Below, piece after piece: positions 22,711 through 33,697 of a DNA stretch of 64,000 bases. Each line of letters starts with the position of its first letter. The first letter of the stretch is position 1. This DNA is from Bacteroidales bacterium (GTDB lineage Bacteria > Bacteroidota > Bacteroidia > Bacteroidales > UBA932). The translations under genes and the position numbers were made by a program. The DNA lies in the NCBI GenBank assembly GCA_017618115.1, contig JAFZUX010000013.1:115490-179489 (forward strand), written 5' to 3'. The notes beneath the pieces are model-generated. The model made no database searches. It was not told the DNA's origin and saw only the letters and a program-made list of their open reading frames with translations.

Positions 22711-23268
22711 ATGAAAATGGCAGAGACAATTCAAGACAGTGAGATTAAAGAGATGCTGCTCAATCCGCAGAAAACGGAGCTGGGATTCCGTCTGCTGATG
22801 CAGCGTTACGGCAAGGCTCTTTACTGGCACATCAGAAGAATTGTAGTAGATCATGAAGATGCGGAAGATGTTCTGCAAGAGACAAGTATAAAGATATTCC
22901 GTTCTGTTGCAAACTATCGGGGAGAAGGAAAGATAACCTCTTGGATTTACAGGATTGCAAGCAATGAGGCGCTCCAACTTCTGAGAAAAAAGGCGGGTTT
23001 CTTCCACAGCATTGAGTCTCTGAGTCCGAGTCTGAAAGCAACATTAGAGGCTCAGACTTCATTTGATGCAAACAGAGCGGAGGTTGTTTTCCAAAAGGCA
23101 GTGCTCTCTCTTCCCGCTCAGCAGCAGTTGGTGTTCAATATGCGCTACTATGATGAGCTTAGTTATGAGGAGATTGCTCAGGTAACCGGAAAGAGTGTAG
23201 GAACCCTTAAGGTGAATTATCACCACGCATACGAAAAAGTGAAAAGTTATTTACAGGAGAACTTATAA
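22711..23268 (+). CDS. ECF-type RNA polymerase sigma factor
   Basis: This 185-residue protein has sigma region 2 at about residues 25-95 (RYGKALYWHIRRIVVDHEDAEDVLQETSIKIF, then GKITSWIYRIASNEA). Region 4 lies at about 130-180 (LPAQQQLVFNMRYYDELSYEEIAQVTGKSVGTLKVNYHHA). Region 3 is missing, as expected for ECF factors. It is followed by a small membrane protein whose ATG overlaps its stop (TAATG), the standard layout for an anti-sigma partner. The third gene in the operon is a Spy-like periplasmic protein, so the regulon may respond to envelope stress. Confidence 0.92.
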   Translation: MKMAETIQDSEIKEMLLNPQKTELGFRLLMQRYGKALYWHIRRIVVDHEDAEDVLQETSIKIFRSVANYRGEGKITSWIYRIASNEALQLLRKKAGFFHSIESLSPSLKATLEAQTSFDANRAEVVFQKAVLSLPAQQQLVFNMRYYDELSYEEIAQVTGKSVGTLKVNYHHAYEKVKSYLQENL

Positions 23269-25780: not shown

Positions 25781-25810
25781 TTTGTAAAGATACAAAAATG
25801 ATTAACTTTG
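25781..25810 (+). promoter_or_regulatory. Promoter of the alarmone/partner-switch operon
   Basis: TTTG at 25781-25784 and TAACTTTG at 25803-25810 are 18 bp apart, matching the Bacteroidota promoter pattern. The first gene starts 19 nt downstream at 25830. Confidence 0.62.
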
Positions 25811-25829: not shown

Positions 25830-26894
25830 ATGTCCCATACCTATCATTTAGATCCTCACTGCCAGGCAATTCTGCAGGAATACAAAGACAACCGTCCCAT
25901 TATAAAGGAGTATGAAGGAAAGGTACTTGCCATTCTGAAACAGACTTTGGAGGAGGCGGGAATACATCTGGCAAGCATAGAATCCAGAATTAAGACGGAA
26001 GATTCTCTTGCCGGAAAGTTGGAACGTAAGGGCAACAAATACAAGAGTCTGGCAGATATTACAGACATCCTGGGAGTGCGTCTTATTACCTACTACATAG
26101 ATGATGTAGATAAGGTTGCCACCGCCGTGGAGAGGATGTTTACCGTAGATTGGGAAAACTCCATAGACAAGCGCAAAATACATGATATAGACAGCTTTGG
26201 ATATGTTTCACTGCACTATGTCTGCTCTACGGAGGGCCTTCCGTACCGCTTTGAAATACAGATGCGTACAGTGCTTCAGCACGCCTGGGCAAATCTGGAT
26301 CATGACACCGGTTACAAATCCGGAGTGGAGATTCCTAAAAGATATATGCGCTCTATGAGCCGCCTTGCGGGAATGCTGGAACTTATAGATGAGGAGTTTA
26401 GTAAGATACGCTCGGAAATCACAGACTACAGAAGGAAAATCCACAAACTGGTTGCCTCCGGAAACCTGGATGAAGTTCCGTTGGACGGAGACTCATTCCG
26501 CAGTTTCCTGGAACTGCAGCCGTTCAGGCAGTTAAACAAGAGGATTGCCTCCGTAAACCAGGCGGAGATTCAGGAGGTATCCCTTATTCCTTATCTTACG
26601 GTATTCAAGGGACTTGAATGCAAGACCCTGGGTGATGTGCGCAACATTATAAACGACTGTTCAGAAGCTGCTTATCAGATTGCCTGCTACCAGATGGGAC
26701 TTACAGATTTAGACATTGTTTCCTCTTCAATCGGCCCTCAGAATCTCTGTATAGCATACATCCTAAAGAAGGGGTGGGGCAAGGGAGGCGTGCGCTATTT
26801 CTTTGATCTGCTTAACGGTAAGAAGGAGAGCAATGATACTGTTGCGGAGATGATTGTAGAACAGGCAAAGGAACTTCCTTTTATGAACCAATAG
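25830..26894 (+). CDS. RelA/SpoT-type alarmone synthetase, single-domain
   Basis: This 354-residue protein has one RelA/SpoT nucleotidyltransferase domain: RIKTEDSLAGK at 53-63, ITDILGVRLI at 77-86, FGYVSLHY at 123-130 and FEIQMRTVLQHAWANLDHD at 141-159. The Glu of EIQMRT is the catalytic Glu position, so activity looks intact. No HD, TGS or ACT domain is fused. About 150 C-terminal residues match nothing I recognise. The family makes (p)ppGpp from ATP and GDP/GTP, though some toxic relatives make (p)ppApp or pyrophosphorylate tRNA. An HD-domain partner is encoded 3 nt downstream. Confidence 0.86.
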   Translation: MSHTYHLDPHCQAILQEYKDNRPIIKEYEGKVLAILKQTLEEAGIHLASIESRIKTEDSLAGKLERKGNKYKSLADITDILGVRLITYYIDDVDKVATAVERMFTVDWENSIDKRKIHDIDSFGYVSLHYVCSTEGLPYRFEIQMRTVLQHAWANLDHDTGYKSGVEIPKRYMRSMSRLAGMLELIDEEFSKIRSEITDYRRKIHKLVASGNLDEVPLDGDSFRSFLELQPFRQLNKRIASVNQAEIQEVSLIPYLTVFKGLECKTLGDVRNIINDCSEAAYQIACYQMGLTDLDIVSSSIGPQNLCIAYILKKGWGKGGVRYFFDLLNGKKESNDTVAEMIVEQAKELPFMNQ

Positions 26895-26897
26895 ACA

Positions 26898-27473
26898 ATG
26901 GCAAATAAACCGCTAGATACCAAACTTTTAGACAGAGCGATTCTGTTTGCCGTAAAGGCCCACTCCGGAACGGAGAGAAGAGGGAAGGGGTTCCCTTACA
27001 TAGTTCATCCTATGGAGGCTATGGAGATTGTTGCCACTATGACTTCAGACCAGGAACTTCTGGCAGCGGCGGTATTGCATGATACAGTGGAAGATACGAG
27101 CGTTACAATAGAAGAGATAAGGCAGCAGTTTGGTGAGAGGATTGCAACTATCGTGGAAAATGAAAGTGATAAAATAATAGAGAACAAAAGTGAGGAGGAG
27201 AGTTGGCACGAGCGCAAAAGAGCTGCTATTGAGAGGCTTGCAAAGGCACCGCATGATGCCAAGATAGTTGCTCTGGGAGACAAGCTGTCTAATATGAGAG
27301 CTATTTGGAGAGACTATAAAGTTAAGGGAAATGAGCTCTGGAAGATATTTCACGTAACAGATAAAAAAGAACACGAATGGCATTACAGGGGGCTTGCAGA
27401 TTCTCTTAGAGAACTGCAGGACACGTTTGCATTCAAGGAGTTCCAATCACTTATAAATGAGGTGTTCAAATGA
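26898..27473 (+). CDS. HD-domain alarmone hydrolase (SpoT/Mesh1-like)
   Basis: This 191-residue stand-alone HD protein has the SpoT hydrolase signature: ERRGKGFPYIVHP at 26-38, AAAVLHDTVEDT at 57-67 and ALGDKLSNMRAI at 125-136. The metal-binding His, His-Asp and Asp positions are all present. The family removes the 3'-pyrophosphate of (p)ppGpp using Mn2+. Its gene follows the synthetase gene after 3 nt and overlaps the APH-like gene by ATGA. The pair therefore splits over two polypeptides what Rel/SpoT does in one. It could reset the signal or act as an antitoxin to the synthetase. Confidence 0.85.
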   Translation: MANKPLDTKLLDRAILFAVKAHSGTERRGKGFPYIVHPMEAMEIVATMTSDQELLAAAVLHDTVEDTSVTIEEIRQQFGERIATIVENESDKIIENKSEEESWHERKRAAIERLAKAPHDAKIVALGDKLSNMRAIWRDYKVKGNELWKIFHVTDKKEHEWHYRGLADSLRELQDTFAFKEFQSLINEVFK

Positions 27474-28303
27474 AACCAATAAAGATTTCTCTTACAGATT
27501 ATATACTTACCGGCGGAGGCGCCAACGGGGAGAGTTATGACCACAAGACAGATCCGTCCGTGATGCTCAAACTCTATTTCCCGGGAAAGATTTCACAGCC
27601 TCTGGATGAGATGCAAATGGCCCGCAAGGTTTACAACCTGGGTATTCCAACTCCGGAGCCGGGAGATTATGTTGTAACAGAAGACGGCCGGTACGGTATC
27701 CGCTTTAAGAAAATTATTGGCAAGAGTTCCTACTCCAGAGCAATTGGAGAGCACCCGGAAAAGATACCTCAGTATGCAAGGGAGTTTGCAGATATGTGCC
27801 TGAACCTCCATAAGATACAACTGGACCCTAAAGAGTTTGAGGATGTGAAAGAGCGCTACTACCGCCTGCTGGAAGAGAACCCTTTCTTCACTGTAAAGGA
27901 AAAGGATAAGCTGGGAAAATTCATTGCAGATGTTCCCGATGAAAACACCGCTCTGCACGGAGACCTTCAGTACAGCAATGCAATCTTTACTCCGCAAGGG
28001 GAGCGGTATTTCATAGACCTGGGAGATTTCTGCCGGGGCAACCGCCTCTTTGATATTGGAATGGTTTACCTCTGCTGCTACCTCAGCAGTGAAGAGTTTA
28101 TAGAAGAAACCTACCACATGCCAAAGCCTGTGGCAATGAAATTCTGGGACACTTTTGCTCCATTGTACTTTGGAGAAGGCATTGGTTTAAAGGAGATTGA
28201 AGAGATGGTTCTGCCATACGCCGGATTGAAAACACTTCTTATTGAGAAAAACACTCAGTGCCCAATGCCTGAATTCAGAGCTGCACTAAAATCTGTATTA
28301 TGA
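27470..28303 (+). CDS. APH-like small-molecule kinase (TIGR02172-like)
   Basis: The 277-residue aminoglycoside-phosphotransferase fold has an N-terminal GGGANGESYDHK glycine-rich strand near 15-26, catalytic HGDLQYSN at 163-170 and the metal-binding FIDLGD at 181-186. All catalytic residues seem intact. The sequence resembles the Fibrobacter paralogous family TIGR02172, whose substrates are unknown; drug resistance is not implied. The start overlaps the HD gene stop by 4 nt and its stop overlaps the next gene by 4 nt, so the three are translationally coupled. Its place inside an alarmone/partner-switch operon is unexplained. Confidence 0.82.
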   Translation: MKPIKISLTDYILTGGGANGESYDHKTDPSVMLKLYFPGKISQPLDEMQMARKVYNLGIPTPEPGDYVVTEDGRYGIRFKKIIGKSSYSRAIGEHPEKIPQYAREFADMCLNLHKIQLDPKEFEDVKERYYRLLEENPFFTVKEKDKLGKFIADVPDENTALHGDLQYSNAIFTPQGERYFIDLGDFCRGNRLFDIGMVYLCCYLSSEEFIEETYHMPKPVAMKFWDTFAPLYFGEGIGLKEIEEMVLPYAGLKTLLIEKNTQCPMPEFRAALKSVL

Positions 28304-30492
28304 ATCTGAAAGAGCACACAAAGAAACTTGCGGAAAAAGTGGAGAAGAGAAGATCCAAGTGGACCGGTCTTCTGCTGATACTCATTGCCGTGGCTTTTCT
28401 GGAAGTCATCTCCGTAGTCCAGGCCTTTTATGCGCAAAAGGGTATCAGAAGTGAAGCTCAGACCAAGGCGGAAAGCCAGCTCAACTCCATAAAAAGCGGA
28501 ATCTTAAACGTTGTAAACCAGGCAGAAAGCGCAGTTAGAAATAATGTCTGGCTGGCGCAGTGGTCTCTTTCGGTTCCCGATAGTTTAGCAAACATTCCTA
28601 AACTGATTGTGAACAACAATCCAATAGTTGCCGGCTCTACAATTGCCATGGTTCCAAACTATTACAAGAACAGACCTCTTTACTCCCCTTATACTGCAAT
28701 AACAAACGGAGAGATTATTGAGACCTCCCTTGCAACAGAGGAGTATGACTATCCGTCTCAGGAGTGGTTTACAAAACCTATAGAACTGGATAGGGGCTAT
28801 TGGTCTGAACCATACATAGATACGGGCGGCGGAGAGATTTTGATGACCACCTATTCCGTTCCTGTTAAAGACAATAAGGGACGCATTGCCGCAGTGCTTA
28901 CAGCAGACATTGACCTTGAGTGGCTTAAGGCACTTGTAAATGATATACAGATTTACCCGGGAGCGTTCAGTACGGTTGTAAGCCGCACGGGCCGTCTTAT
29001 GGTAAGCCCGGAGGACAGCCTTATAATGAACACTACCATAGACGAATACGCCTCCAAGGTAGAAGATACCGCCTCATTTAACGCTCTCAACAGGGCAATG
29101 CTCAGCAGAAAGAGCGGCAGTATTCGGGTAACTCAGAACGGGAAAAAGAACATGGTCTACTATACCCCTATAGATAAGACCGGATGGGCCATGAACATCA
29201 TAATACCGGAAAAAGAGATGTTTGCAGGCCTTAAGAAACTGAATAATCTCATTAGGTTACTGCAACTCTTTGGTCTTCTTCTTATAGTTCTAATCTTCCG
29301 TTCCATAGCAAGAAGTCAGCTCAGGTTTAAGAGTATCTCAGATAAGAAGGAGAAGATGGAAAATGAGCTCAAGATTGCAAGTGACATACAGATGTCTATG
29401 ATTCCTAAGACATTCCCGCCGTTCCCGGAAAGGGATGACATAGATCTCTCCGCAGCTCTGGTTCCGGCAAAGGAGGTAAGCGGAGACCTGTATGACTTTT
29501 TTATCAGAGATGAAAAACTCTTCTTCTGCATAGGTGATGTTTCCGGAAAGGGAGTTCCCGCCTCTTTGCTGATGGCGGTTACAAGAAGCCTGTTCCGCAG
29601 TGTAGGTGCTCATAACGACAACCCTAATGAGATTGTCTCCACAATGAACAACTCTCTCTCAGATATGAATGAGAGCAATATGTTTGTCACCTTTATCTGC
29701 TGTGTATTGGATCTTAAGACAGGAGAGATGAAGTACAGCAACGCAGGCCACAACGCTCCTCTGCTGTTTACGGACAAGATGAGTGAACTGCCTGTAAATC
29801 CGAACCTTCCGCTTGGCGTCATCCGCAATTGGGAGTACTCCGTTCAGGATGTAACTCTCCATTTTGATGATGCAATCTTCCTCTATACGGACGGTATAAC
29901 GGAGGCGGAAAACATTAACCATGAACTCTTTGGAATTGAGAGATTGAAAAAGACGCTCTCAGGAAAGAAGGCGGCTCAGGCTCATCTGAACAATGTAAAG
30001 AAAGCGGTTGCAGATTTTGTGGGAGAGGCTCCGCAAAGTGACGATCTTACAATGCTCTTCTTCCATTATCTGAACTCTTCAGTTAAAGACGGAAGCGAGC
30101 AAACCATAACATTGGAAAACAATGTAAATGAGATTCGTAAACTTGAGAAGTTTATTAGTGATGTTGCTCAAAAGATGCAACTTACAGAGTCTTTAAAAAC
30201 GGGCTTGAATCTTGCAATGGAAGAGGCGGTCTCAAACGCCATTATGTATTCCGGTTCAAAAACCGTAGAGGTTGCCGCTCAAACAGGTAAGGATGAAATT
30301 ACCTTTACCATAACGGACAGCGGCAAACCGTTTGACCCAACCGCCGTTCCGGAGGCTGATGTAAACCAGGAGGCCGCAGAGCGTCCTATAGGAGGCTTAG
30401 GTATATTCCTTTACAGGAAGATTATGGACCGAGTCACTTATAAACGCCTAAATGATAAGAATATACTCACTCTTACAAAGAGGCTGAACTAA
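28300..30492 (+). CDS. Membrane Cache sensor with SpoIIE phosphatase and RsbW-like kinase domains
   Basis: The domain order over 730 residues is: transmembrane segment (about 21-41), extracytoplasmic double-Cache-like region (about 45-300, with PSQEWFTKPIELDRGYWSEPY), second transmembrane segment (about 307-327), PP2C/SpoIIE phosphatase (about 350-590, with VSGDLYDFF, IGDVSGKG, NAGHN, LYTDGITEA, SDDLTML) and a GHKL kinase (about 605-730, with N-box MEEAVSNAIMYSG, DSGKPFDP and GGLGIF). Phosphatase and kinase therefore sit in one polypeptide, opposing activities acting on the same kind of STAS protein. A STAS gene follows 29 nt later. An extracellular ligand presumably sets the balance. Confidence 0.87.
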   Translation: MNLKEHTKKLAEKVEKRRSKWTGLLLILIAVAFLEVISVVQAFYAQKGIRSEAQTKAESQLNSIKSGILNVVNQAESAVRNNVWLAQWSLSVPDSLANIPKLIVNNNPIVAGSTIAMVPNYYKNRPLYSPYTAITNGEIIETSLATEEYDYPSQEWFTKPIELDRGYWSEPYIDTGGGEILMTTYSVPVKDNKGRIAAVLTADIDLEWLKALVNDIQIYPGAFSTVVSRTGRLMVSPEDSLIMNTTIDEYASKVEDTASFNALNRAMLSRKSGSIRVTQNGKKNMVYYTPIDKTGWAMNIIIPEKEMFAGLKKLNNLIRLLQLFGLLLIVLIFRSIARSQLRFKSISDKKEKMENELKIASDIQMSMIPKTFPPFPERDDIDLSAALVPAKEVSGDLYDFFIRDEKLFFCIGDVSGKGVPASLLMAVTRSLFRSVGAHNDNPNEIVSTMNNSLSDMNESNMFVTFICCVLDLKTGEMKYSNAGHNAPLLFTDKMSELPVNPNLPLGVIRNWEYSVQDVTLHFDDAIFLYTDGITEAENINHELFGIERLKKTLSGKKAAQAHLNNVKKAVADFVGEAPQSDDLTMLFFHYLNSSVKDGSEQTITLENNVNEIRKLEKFISDVAQKMQLTESLKTGLNLAMEEAVSNAIMYSGSKTVEVAAQTGKDEITFTITDSGKPFDPTAVPEADVNQEAAERPIGGLGIFLYRKIMDRVTYKRLNDKNILTLTKRLN

Positions 30493-30521
30493 ATCGAATA
30501 ATAAGAATAAAACAGTATAAA

Positions 30522-30824
30522 ATGAAAACAAAAGTCACTAAAGAAGAGGGGAAGATTACCATAGCCTTTATAGGCCGTTTAGACACCCCGGCTGCTCAGG
30601 AAGTTAATCCTGTAATCAACGAACTTATAGAAGAGGCAGATAAGACCATCATCATAGACTGCAAAGAGATGGCCTACATCTCCAGTTCAGGTCTTAGAAT
30701 CTTCCTTACCCTAAGAAAGGCGGCAGAGGACAAGAAAGGCAAGGTAATCATTGAGAACATCAACGATGAAATCCGCAGCGTCTTTATGATGACCGGCTTC
30801 CTAAATCTCTTTGAGATCAGATAA
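30522..30824 (+). CDS. STAS-domain anti-anti-sigma-like protein
   Basis: This 100-residue single STAS domain has the phosphorylation loop DCKEMAYISSSGLRIFL. By alignment with SpoIIAA, Ser55 is the probable phosphosite. GRLDT near residue 18 and FMMTGF near the end also fit the family. Its natural antagonists are the phosphatase and kinase domains encoded just upstream. No sigma factor of the SigF/SigB type exists in the window, so the STAS protein probably controls another target, possibly in the same operon. The 3' end overlaps the convergent ybaK-like gene by 8 nt. Confidence 0.87.
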   Translation: MKTKVTKEEGKITIAFIGRLDTPAAQEVNPVINELIEEADKTIIIDCKEMAYISSSGLRIFLTLRKAAEDKKGKVIIENINDEIRSVFMMTGFLNLFEIR

Positions 30825-31356
30825 TTGTAACTGTGTGATTGGTGTAGGGAAGGTATTTTTGGAGGAGGTCTGCGGTTTGGATTTTTACAAAGCAGGTGGC
30901 GGTGCCGTCCGTGCAGGCAAACTCACTGCTCTCTACAACGCTCTTATCCATAATAAGATGCACATCTTTACAGGAGGGCAGAATTGCACTCAGGATGGTA
31001 GTTGCGCCAACCTTCACTCCTGTTAATTCCCATAATCTATCGGGAGAAGCAAAGGAGACCCTTGGAATCTGAAGGGCTCCGCAGAACTCTCTGGTTACAA
31101 AAGGTTTGTCATCTGTGGTGACATAAAGGTAGAACTCCGTTTGCTGGCGGTTGCAGAGGAAGAGGGTCTTTACAATTCTGCTACCTATCTTAGCATCAAT
31201 GTGTTGGCAGTCTTCCATGGTGATACCCGGGTCTGTGTCTACCCGTTGAAAAGGGATGCCGAGCTTTGCAAAGGTCTCATAGACAAGCCTCCTGAGCTCT
31301 GTTTCAAACTCAGGAGGTGGTGTTGTCATAAGTTCGCTTACCTTAAACTCACTCAT
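30817..31356 (-). CDS. YbaK/ProX-type aminoacyl-tRNA deacylase
   Basis: This 179-residue protein of the YbaK/ProRS-INS superfamily has IDAKIGSRIVKTLFLCNRQQTEFYLYVTTDDKPF, then RVSFASPDRLWELTGVKVGATT and a C-terminal HLIMDKSVVE. The family hydrolyses mischarged tRNAs such as Ala- or Cys-tRNA(Pro). The sequence is closest in style to the ProX/PrdX group. Its ATG overlaps the upstream lipoprotein stop (TAATG), so the two are coupled. It meets the STAS gene tail-to-tail with an 8-nt overlap. Confidence 0.85.
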   Translation of the reverse strand: MSEFKVSELMTTPPPEFETELRRLVYETFAKLGIPFQRVDTDPGITMEDCQHIDAKIGSRIVKTLFLCNRQQTEFYLYVTTDDKPFVTREFCGALQIPRVSFASPDRLWELTGVKVGATTILSAILPSCKDVHLIMDKSVVESSEFACTDGTATCFVKIQTADLLQKYLPYTNHTVTII

Positions 31357-31897: not shown

Positions 31898-33697
31898 TTA
31901 CATTGGATAGAGAAGGTTTACAACTGTAAGGTTTACGGCAAGTATGATGAAGTTCATACAAACGCCTATCTTTAAGAAGTCTGAGAATCTGTAGCCTCCC
32001 GGACCGTAAACCAGCATGTGGGTTGGCGAGCCTATAGGTGTTGCAAAACTGCAGGATACGGCAATCATAAGTGAGATTATAAACGGCAACGGATTTACGC
32101 CTAGTGATACAGCCGTCTGGTAGACAATAGGATAGAAGATTGTACCTGCGGCAGTGTTGGAGATGAATTCCGTTAGAAAAGTTGCCGCCAGACACATCAT
32201 ACTCATCACCAGAATAGGACGGTCATTGCAGAGGGAGAGCATACCGTTTGCAATAGCCTCTGCTATACCGGTTTTCTGTATGGCCGTTCCAATTACCACA
32301 CTTCCGGCAAAGACCATAAGTATGTTCCAGTCTATAGATTTCATTGCCTGAGACGGAGTGCAGCAGCGGAAGATAAGCATGGCAGCGGCGGCAAGGAATG
32401 CACTCTGCAGCAATGTCATAATCTTAAGACTGGAGAGCACAATCATACCCACCATAATCAAACTGGAAATGAGCGTTTTAACGCCTATACGAGGGATGAC
32501 TGAATCATTTTCCACAAACTGGAGTCCACGTATCTGATGCAGTGAGTTGGCTGGGTTTGAACGGTGGGTTGGAGCACACTCCAGAAGAAGTGAATCTCCA
32601 ACCTTCAGTTCTATATCTCTTGGAGCTCGGCTTATGCGCTCTCCCCGGCGAGCTACTGCAACCAGTGTGAACTGATAATCATTCTCTATTGTTGTCTCTG
32701 ACAGTCTCTTTCCAACCAGAATGCATTCCGGCATTATGTAGGCTGTAACAAGCTGTCTTCTGGTATCTAACTCACTTACGGTAAATACCGGACGGTCTGC
32801 GCTCACAAGGTGGTGAGTCTTGCGCAGTTCCAGAATATCCTCCACGTTGCCGGAAAATACCAGACGGTCTCCGCCCATAAGGAACTCATCCTGAGGAACG
32901 GGGCTAATCACTTCACGGTCAAAGCGTACAATCTCAATAAGCTGACCTCCTTCTACATTTGTAAGGCCCGCTTCCTGAACGGTCTTTCCAATATGGGGGC
33001 AGTCTGCCGGAACCAGAAGTTCTTCTGTGTATTCCTTTGTATTTTCAAAAGACTCTTCCGCACTGTGGCGCTCCGGTAAAAGTTTTCTTAATGCAATAAT
33101 AGAGAGCACGCCTACGGCAAGACAGGCCAAACCCGGTATTGTGGTTGAGAATATGTTAAGGCTCACGCCGGTATTTTCTGCGTAAAGTCCTGAAATAATG
33201 AGGTTTGGAGGCGTTCCTATAAGGGTGCAGACTCCGCCCAGACCTGAGGCGTAACTTAGAGGAATGAGCAGTTTGGAGGGGGCAATATGTAACTTCTTTG
33301 CCCAGATTTTTACAATGTTTACAAAGAGTGCTACAACCGTAGTGTTGCTAAGTACGGAACTTAATCCGGCAACCGGAAGCATAAGTCTTACAACTGCGGC
33401 AGAATAGCGCTTAGGCGTTCCAAGCAGGTGACGCACAATCCATTGCAGCACCCCTGTGTGTATCAGTCCAGCAAGAACGGCAAACAATACTCCTATTACA
33501 ACTACGGAAGATGAGGAGAAGCCTCCTAAAGCCTCCTTGGTGTCAAGAACGCCGGTAAGCAGAAGAATGGCAATAACTCCCAAAAAGGCAACATCCTCTC
33601 TCAATTTTGTGAATAATAGACAGAGAAACATTGCCAGCACGGTAACTATTGTTATCCATGCTCCAAGATTCAATCCAAGTAAGATAAAATCACTCAT
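31898..33697 (-). CDS. SLC13/DASS-type permease with RCK_C domains
   Basis: This 599-residue polytopic membrane protein has an N-terminal half with several transmembrane helices, including SNTTVVALFVNIVKIWAKK and the signature GTPPNLIISG. A central cytoplasmic region of about 200 residues carries two TrkA_C (RCK_C) modules (LVPADCPHIGKTVQEAGL and AYIMPECILVGKRLSETTI). A second membrane half contains EFISNTAAGTIF and FATPIGSPTHMLVYGPGGYRFSDF. SLC13-type carriers move sulfate, phosphate or dicarboxylates, usually with Na+; the substrate here is undetermined. It is the first gene of the leftward operon running to ybaK. Confidence 0.92.
   Translation of the reverse strand: MSDFILLGLNLGAWITIVTVLAMFLCLLFTKLREDVAFLGVIAILLLTGVLDTKEALGGFSSSSVVVIGVLFAVLAGLIHTGVLQWIVRHLLGTPKRYSAAVVRLMLPVAGLSSVLSNTTVVALFVNIVKIWAKKLHIAPSKLLIPLSYASGLGGVCTLIGTPPNLIISGLYAENTGVSLNIFSTTIPGLACLAVGVLSIIALRKLLPERHSAEESFENTKEYTEELLVPADCPHIGKTVQEAGLTNVEGGQLIEIVRFDREVISPVPQDEFLMGGDRLVFSGNVEDILELRKTHHLVSADRPVFTVSELDTRRQLVTAYIMPECILVGKRLSETTIENDYQFTLVAVARRGERISRAPRDIELKVGDSLLLECAPTHRSNPANSLHQIRGLQFVENDSVIPRIGVKTLISSLIMVGMIVLSSLKIMTLLQSAFLAAAAMLIFRCCTPSQAMKSIDWNILMVFAGSVVIGTAIQKTGIAEAIANGMLSLCNDRPILVMSMMCLAATFLTEFISNTAAGTIFYPIVYQTAVSLGVNPLPFIISLMIAVSCSFATPIGSPTHMLVYGPGGYRFSDFLKIGVCMNFIILAVNLTVVNLLYPM

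Follow-up and report, generated by a model that had tools for sequence, protein, structure and literature searches.

A candidate ligand-gated partner switch encoded with alarmone enzymes and a TIGR02172-like kinase in gut and rumen Bacteroidales

We analyzed a 64,000-nucleotide stretch (hereafter the window) of contig JAFZUX010000013.1 (positions 115,490 to 179,489, forward strand) from GenBank assembly GCA_017618115.1 of a Bacteroidales bacterium, whose genome comprises 1.85 Mb in 26 contigs and is 89% complete. At 25830-30824, the window carries five plus-strand genes that encode, from 5' to 3', a small alarmone synthetase (SAS), an HD hydrolase, a TIGR02172/APH-like kinase, a Cache-PP2C-HATPase sensor and a STAS protein, spaced by a 3-nt gap, two successive 4-nt overlaps and a 29-nt gap. 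The open reading frames (ORFs) bear out the layout, coordinates, strand and spacing given in a preliminary description of this DNA, and its domain calls hold for all five proteins, with every Pfam match exceeding its curated cut-off. The EIQMRT, HD-VED (HDTVED in full) and HGDLQYSN motifs that it named were all found, a Bacteroidota-type pattern lies where it had placed a promoter, and its Cache sensor is supported by the Pfam families MCP-like_PDC_1 and dCache_1. The features of the operon are as follows.

25781..25810, plus strand: Bacteroidota-type promoter pattern TTTG-N18-TAACTTTG, a pattern match and predicted promoter
25830..26894, plus strand: SAS, 354 amino acids (aa) (PF04607 RelA_SpoT, 72.5 bits; invariant D79, Y125 and E142)
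25983..26324, plus strand: RelA_SpoT catalytic domain of SAS, residues 52-165 (Pfam)
26442..26891, plus strand: C-terminal region of SAS (residues 205-354), which is conserved within the module clade
26898..27473, plus strand: HD-type small alarmone hydrolase, 191 aa (HD_4, 77.2 bits; invariant metal ligands)
27470..28303, plus strand: TIGR02172/APH-like kinase, 277 aa (APH, 52.7 bits; TIGR02172, 220.3 bits)
28300..30492, plus strand: membrane sensor of 730 aa that carries a PP2C phosphatase and an RsbW-type kinase (Pfam)
28600..29190, plus strand: Cache (PDC) sensor domain, residues 101-297 (MCP-like_PDC_1, 98.4 bits; dCache_1)
29509..30063, plus strand: SpoIIE-type PP2C domain, residues 404-588 (SpoIIE, 164.1 bits)
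30118..30480, plus strand: HATPase_c_2 (RsbW-type) kinase domain, residues 607-727 (85.3 bits)
30522..30824, plus strand: STAS protein, 100 aa (STAS, 59.7 bits; the sole PF01740 match in the genome)
30684..30686, plus strand: codon of STAS Ser55, the predicted phosphorylation site (Ser in 79/79 rows)

The promoter pattern follows what we take to be the Bacteroidota-type consensus. Since TTTG-N17-20-TAnnTTTG has nine matches in the window against 0.94 expected, the pattern looks informative in the source genome.

The active sites of the switch and of the alarmone enzymes, which the preliminary description had called intact, are near-invariant across the related loci described below. We counted residues in alignment columns that held the best match per locus plus the window, excluding rows under the score thresholds. 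SAS retains D79, Y125, E142 and Q144 in 97/97 rows and R146 in 96/97; the HD hydrolase retains the ligands H37, H61, D62, E65, D66 and D128 in 92/92, and the APH-like kinase its catalytic residues H163, D165, N170 and D183 in 86/86. In the sensor, the PP2C metal-binding aspartates D396, D413, D581 and D582 are present in 81/81 rows (D531 in 80/81), and N646, G698, G699 and G701 of the kinase N and G boxes are present in 82/82. STAS Ser55 is presumably equivalent to SpoIIAA Ser58, and the roles of the conserved residues in SAS and its partner proteins are likewise those that we presume. Three sequence hallmarks of a partner switch are in place: SpoIIE-type PP2C aspartates, intact RsbW-type N and G boxes and a STAS serine.

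RelA_SpoT is the sole Pfam match of SAS, which has no HD, TGS or ACT domain. When its profile was searched against solved structures, YjbM and YwaC were nearest (E about 1e-17), followed at a distance by 7ztb/9erv (E 1.2e-4), which we take to be CapRel. Since the profile lies nearer to YjbM/YwaC than to 7ztb/9erv, the predicted product is most likely (p)ppGpp. The C-terminal region of about 150 aa found no match in a profile search of solved structures (best E 0.41). The second protein has an HD_4 domain and no synthetase domain, which fits the small alarmone hydrolase class. Two further RelA_SpoT matches in the source genome lie in frames of 770 and 769 aa, and the small synthetase is additional to these two long RSH proteins; a 2011 survey gives Rel and RshB for Bacteroidia (PMC3153485). 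The kinase matches TIGR02172 over its full length, slightly under the curated cut-off of 228.2 bits, and is therefore termed TIGR02172-like. Its relatives score 236.1 (L064, exceeding the cut-off), 224.5 (L063) and 223.8 bits (L069), and the literature searched, mostly without subscription papers, yielded no mention of TIGR02172.

We compared gene neighborhoods in 96 loci (16 from the same genus, 8 from the order and 80 from GTDB, minus 8 same-contig duplicates), which were found via SAS alone and scored for six domains (SAS, HD, APH, PP2C, the RsbW-type kinase domain W, and STAS) with models built from sequences of this analysis. All six domains were present in 72/96 loci, and in 6 of the 8 from the order. 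In 11 of the 24 incomplete loci, the sequence around SAS extends 4.5 kb or more upstream and 6 kb or more downstream, enough flank for the absences to be real; the other 13 have less. By the preliminary description, a lack of conserved linkage in related genomes would have refuted its reading; the linkage is conserved. A chance neighborhood is rejected, as the joint presence of all parts in 72/96 loci is far beyond chance.

The gene order SAS, HD, APH, sensor, STAS is found in 51/72 complete loci. Five others (plus one interrupted by a contig end) read sensor, STAS, SAS, HD, APH; four read APH, sensor, STAS, SAS, HD; three read W, sensor, STAS, SAS, HD-APH; and three read SAS, sensor, STAS, HD, APH. 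Single cases read sensor, STAS, SAS, APH, HD, or sensor, W, STAS, SAS, HD-APH, or are divergent, and two complete loci have a repeated or extra sensor gene. The complete loci show seven co-oriented arrangements and one divergent one. Phosphatase and kinase are joined in one protein in 68/72 complete loci, and in 15/72 no other module gene separates SAS from a preceding STAS; in L080, L084 and L095, an unrelated opposite-strand gene lies between the two. Since membership is kept while order changes, selection appears to act on the set, and shared descent is not the only explanation for its persistence.

The gene set is common to many gut and rumen Bacteroidales. GTDB representatives hold at least 583 SAS relatives, the best 80 of which were taken for the locus comparison and belong to Bacteroidales, Bacteroidia, Bacteroidaceae or Prevotellaceae assemblies, mostly ruminant. 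SAS is found in 17/37 same-genus genomes (own included) and in 0/24 other genomes in the same search, while a scan of the order returned relatives in 24/393 genomes at E<=1e-5. Orthologues of the kinase (at least 470 bits) and of the sensor (at least 860 bits) each occur in 16/17 same-genus genomes with SAS and in 0/20 without it; these 37 genomes are related drafts, so the counts are not independent trials. The exception among the 17 (G036) has an SAS that is 49% identical, with HD as its sole neighbor from the module. Three of the 20 genomes without SAS have APH matches of 25-31%. Scanning 395 genomes of the phylum added 11 SAS relatives at E<=1e-20 outside the order, and the 8 to 17 kb regions around them contained no HD, APH, STAS, PP2C, W or Cache match. 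In a quick tree with long branches outside the module clade, module SAS (26 rows) form one clade (SH-like approximate likelihood ratio test 100) apart from 52 viral-contig rows.

Two kinds of fusion bear on the kinase. HD and APH form a single ORF of 469-478 aa in four genomes (L064, L065, L066 and L069); Pfam confirms both HD_4 and APH in L064 and L069, which are the same fusion proteins scored against TIGR02172 above. STAS and APH form a single ORF in five genomes, within partner-switch clusters that have no SAS or HD matches.

L172:11650-12894, L173:6031-7242, L209:8448-9641, L210:7745-8995 and L211:7925-9121: STAS-APH fusion ORFs (Pfam on L172 and L173)

Three of these five come from the scan of the order (3/393 genomes; G351, G265 and G407). 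Together, the two kinds of fusion link such a kinase with HD in one context and with STAS in another, which makes it a serious candidate for a direct STAS partner.

With moderate confidence, we propose that the five genes form a partner switch that is gated by a ligand and controls alarmone turnover, together with a TIGR02172-like kinase. Judging from the domains, a ligand outside the cytoplasm would bind the Cache domain and shift the PP2C/HATPase balance within the same polypeptide. Based on the invariant residues and on what is known of the families, the HATPase domain would phosphorylate STAS Ser55, and the PP2C domain would remove the phosphate. One form of STAS would then bind an output protein, which could be the APH-like kinase or else SAS, possibly contacted at its C-terminal region, as suggested by the conserved clustering and by the examples of SiaC, HsbA and BgrV. 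SiaC binds the cyclase SiaD directly and thereby activates it, unless SiaB has phosphorylated SiaC, and the STAS proteins BgrV and HsbA control BgrR and HsbD, respectively (PMC8457831). Since SiaC works in its dephosphorylated form, dephosphorylated STAS is, by analogy, most likely the active form. SAS would make a pyrophosphorylated nucleotide, which HD would remove, and the APH-like kinase, which forms one protein with HD in some genomes, may modulate HD or act on a nucleotide or protein of the pathway. A Sia-like partner switch with alarmone turnover as its output is the most economical reading of the locus.

Several observations weigh against this proposal. The module is patchy, with SAS matches at E<1e-100 in 9/393 genomes of the order (own included), and two of the eight others (L067 and L068) hold SAS and HD only. 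Among the 11 real absences, SAS-HD pairs stand without switch and APH nearby in L036, L067, L068 and L097, and SAS stands without any other module part nearby in L123 and L130; the switch is missing from L089, HD from L116 and L120, and a local APH from L027 and L143. In the SAS tree, L036 branches first in the module clade, and L067, L123 and L130 lie inside it, so the missing parts in the latter three look like losses. The loci share ancestry, so the 72 complete ones are not 72 independent events. No fusion of SAS to another module part was found among the 96 loci, in which the longest SAS ORF is 386 aa. Close SAS relatives also stand alone on phages, and the sensor has lesser matches in six of the 20 genomes of the genus that lack SAS (best G010, 571 bits, 42%), which suggests that the switch also serves other outputs. 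Lastly, no alarmone gene was seen in the clusters with STAS-APH fusions, so the direct partner may be APH itself.

This last point leads to a possible, though less probable, alternative, in which the TIGR02172/APH-like kinase is the direct output of the switch and SAS and HD are co-regulated neighbors or downstream substrates. Besides the five STAS-APH proteins in clusters without SAS or HD, it draws on the way APH tracks SAS in the genus (16/17 versus 0/20) and on genome G021, which has an operon without APH and retains an intact APH elsewhere in the genome at 87% identity. However, HD is found in more loci than APH (91/96 versus 85/96, SAS being constant by locus selection), with HD absent locally only in L116, L120, L123, L130 and the short contig L081. 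L143 also retains sensor, STAS, SAS and HD with no APH nearby, and the fused APH belongs to a distant branch that scores 108-121 bits against TIGR02172 (108.5 in L173 and 120.9 in L209, under the cut-off), compared to 220 in the window. A separate and unlikely reading is a new kind of nucleotide pathway under receptor control. SAS would make an alarmone, the kinase (joined by the Cytidylate_kin2-like protein in loci that have one) would phosphorylate this alarmone or the HD product into a further messenger not described before, and STAS would steer flux between kinase and hydrolase in response to an extracellular ligand.

Stand-alone SAS relatives, mostly about 350-375 aa, occur on 76 viral-contig loci (L214-L289) and on a phage-like Bacteroides finegoldii plasmid (L290), and none of 78 phage or plasmid loci has another module part, HD included, beside SAS. 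These relatives are possibly superinfection or defense cargo. They are also consistent with a reading that we consider very unlikely, in which SAS-HD is a toxin-antitoxin or antiphage pair (a toxSAS with its neutralizing hydrolase) within a switch operon, with (p)ppApp synthesis or tRNA modification as possible activities of SAS. The antitoxin encoded next to FaRel is a small alarmone hydrolase (PMC11782079), and the catalytic part of SAS weakly matches the PADLOC candidate PDC-S33 (56.2 bits). On the other hand, the SAS profile is nearer to YjbM/YwaC than to 7ztb/9erv, SAS lacks a local HD in four loci (L116, L120, L123 and L130), where a neutralizer may lie elsewhere or be of another kind, the assemblies seen place the clade on chromosomes, and sensor and switch are kept in most loci. 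An antiphage gene was set aside, as the PADLOC match covers the catalytic part only.

The preliminary description had found no sigma factor target, and this stands for the cluster; genome-wide, we found one Sigma70_r3 match, in a 286-aa frame, and no sigmaB/F-type factor. We infer that the single Sigma70_r3 protein is the housekeeping factor, and a second region-3 sigma factor was not found in the 89% complete genome, with extracytoplasmic function (ECF) factors not counted. ECF factors lack region 3, and the ORF at 22711-23268 resembles one, judged only by eye. Given a single STAS domain and a single region-3 sigma factor in the genome, a target of the sigmaB/F type is unlikely, although an 89% complete genome may hide one; a sigmaB-type cascade was set aside on the single Sigma70_r3 match. 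Two HATPase_c_2 domains exceed the cut-off in the genome, one in the sensor and the other, RsbW-like, fused to a MatE transporter in a protein of 613 aa (L212:6454-8295; G000:C17). That the target of the switch is encoded elsewhere, be it a sigma factor or another partner, with the alarmone genes merely co-transcribed, is also very unlikely: STAS and its kinase form an RsbV/RsbW-type pair and the MatE fusion provides a second RsbW-like domain, but the genome has one Sigma70_r3 and one STAS match, and simple co-transcription leaves unexplained why membership is kept through reshuffling.

Other genes lie around the module and its paralogous switch clusters. The STAS gene shares 8 bases with a convergent tRNA_edit gene (30817-31356, minus strand), and a CitMHS-type transporter with TrkA_C lies nearby at 31898-33697 (minus strand); transporters of the same type lie near two paralogous switch clusters (L172:5570-7423 and L211:13327-15123). 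Accessory families were clustered by similarity, with Pfam run on one exchanger-like, two Cytidylate_kin2-like and one NMT1-like protein. A sodium/hydrogen exchanger-like family is in or near the module in 33/96 loci (e.g., L076:5160-6659), with TrkA_C in the one scanned. A Cytidylate_kin2-like gene adjoins or lies inside the module in 14/96 loci (e.g., L032:6126-6815 and L094:3312-3968), making its product a possible sixth component, and an NMT1-like family is found in 9/96. Some of these genes lie between module genes, and others are merely nearby. Among the switch clusters, an NMT1/THI5-like binding-protein gene adjoins the Cache-PP2C gene in L172-L175 and L177-L180 (Pfam in L177, the others by eye), which hints at ligand delivery by a binding protein. 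The STAS-APH gene of L173 adjoins a Y_phosphatase3 gene (Pfam), and L172 has a similar neighbor by eye.

The Bacillus RsbU/RsbV/RsbW-sigmaB system combines a SpoIIE-type PP2C, a HATPase kinase and a STAS protein with a conserved serine, and its output is a sigma factor. Our module differs in having no linked sigma factor and, in nearly all complete loci, phosphatase and kinase in one protein. The preliminary statement that partner switches normally control sigma factors is incomplete, as SiaABCD, HsbA-HsbD and BgrV-BgrR control nucleotide-messenger synthases (PMC8457831). Like the module, SiaABCD of Pseudomonas aeruginosa encodes together a membrane PP2C, a kinase, a STAS-like partner and a nucleotide-messenger synthase (PMC8457831); SiaA has HAMP and PP2C domains, and SiaC is phosphorylated at T68 (PMC7647112). 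Unlike the module, it has a cyclic di-GMP (c-di-GMP) cyclase as output, its SiaC is a DUF1987 protein, and it divides phosphatase and kinase between two proteins. Against the window's sensor, the SiaA phosphatase model scores 51.5 bits (cut-off 700), and Pfam finds RelA_SpoT and no GGDEF match in the five proteins. To our knowledge, SiaABCD has no alarmone hydrolase or APH-like kinase, and we know of no hydrolase/APH pair in HsbA-HsbD or BgrV-BgrR either. These two systems, from P. aeruginosa and Sinorhizobium meliloti, resemble the module in that the phosphorylation state of STAS controls a nucleotide-messenger synthase (PMC8457831), the messenger being c-di-GMP and not an alarmone.

On the alarmone side, the RelQ/RelP-type synthetases YjbM and YwaC are the nearest solved structures to the catalytic domain of SAS, which differs in its extra C-terminal region and in scoring 59.6 bits against the YjbM equivalog model (cut-off 320). 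Alarmone enzymes are known mostly for responding to signals from within the cell, among them the ribosome, starvation and SAS gene transcription. The preliminary view that they normally work alone or as Rel is incomplete in that it omits toxSAS-hydrolase operons (PMC11782079). FaRel/aTfaRel also sets a small synthetase beside a small alarmone hydrolase (PMC11782079), whereas in the module this pair is embedded with sensor, switch and kinase, and the SAS profile is nearer to YjbM/YwaC than to 7ztb. We found no description of a partner switch joined to an alarmone synthetase in the literature, which was covered by titles and abstract openings and mostly without subscription papers. If our proposal is correct, a membrane receptor acting via a serine-phosphorylation switch would be a new growth-control input in gut and rumen Bacteroidales, partner switching would extend from c-di-GMP to alarmones, and TIGR02172-like kinases would gain their first pathway. 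Altogether, the switch-to-messenger principle is known, and its coupling to alarmones, with HD and APH as partners, appears to be new.

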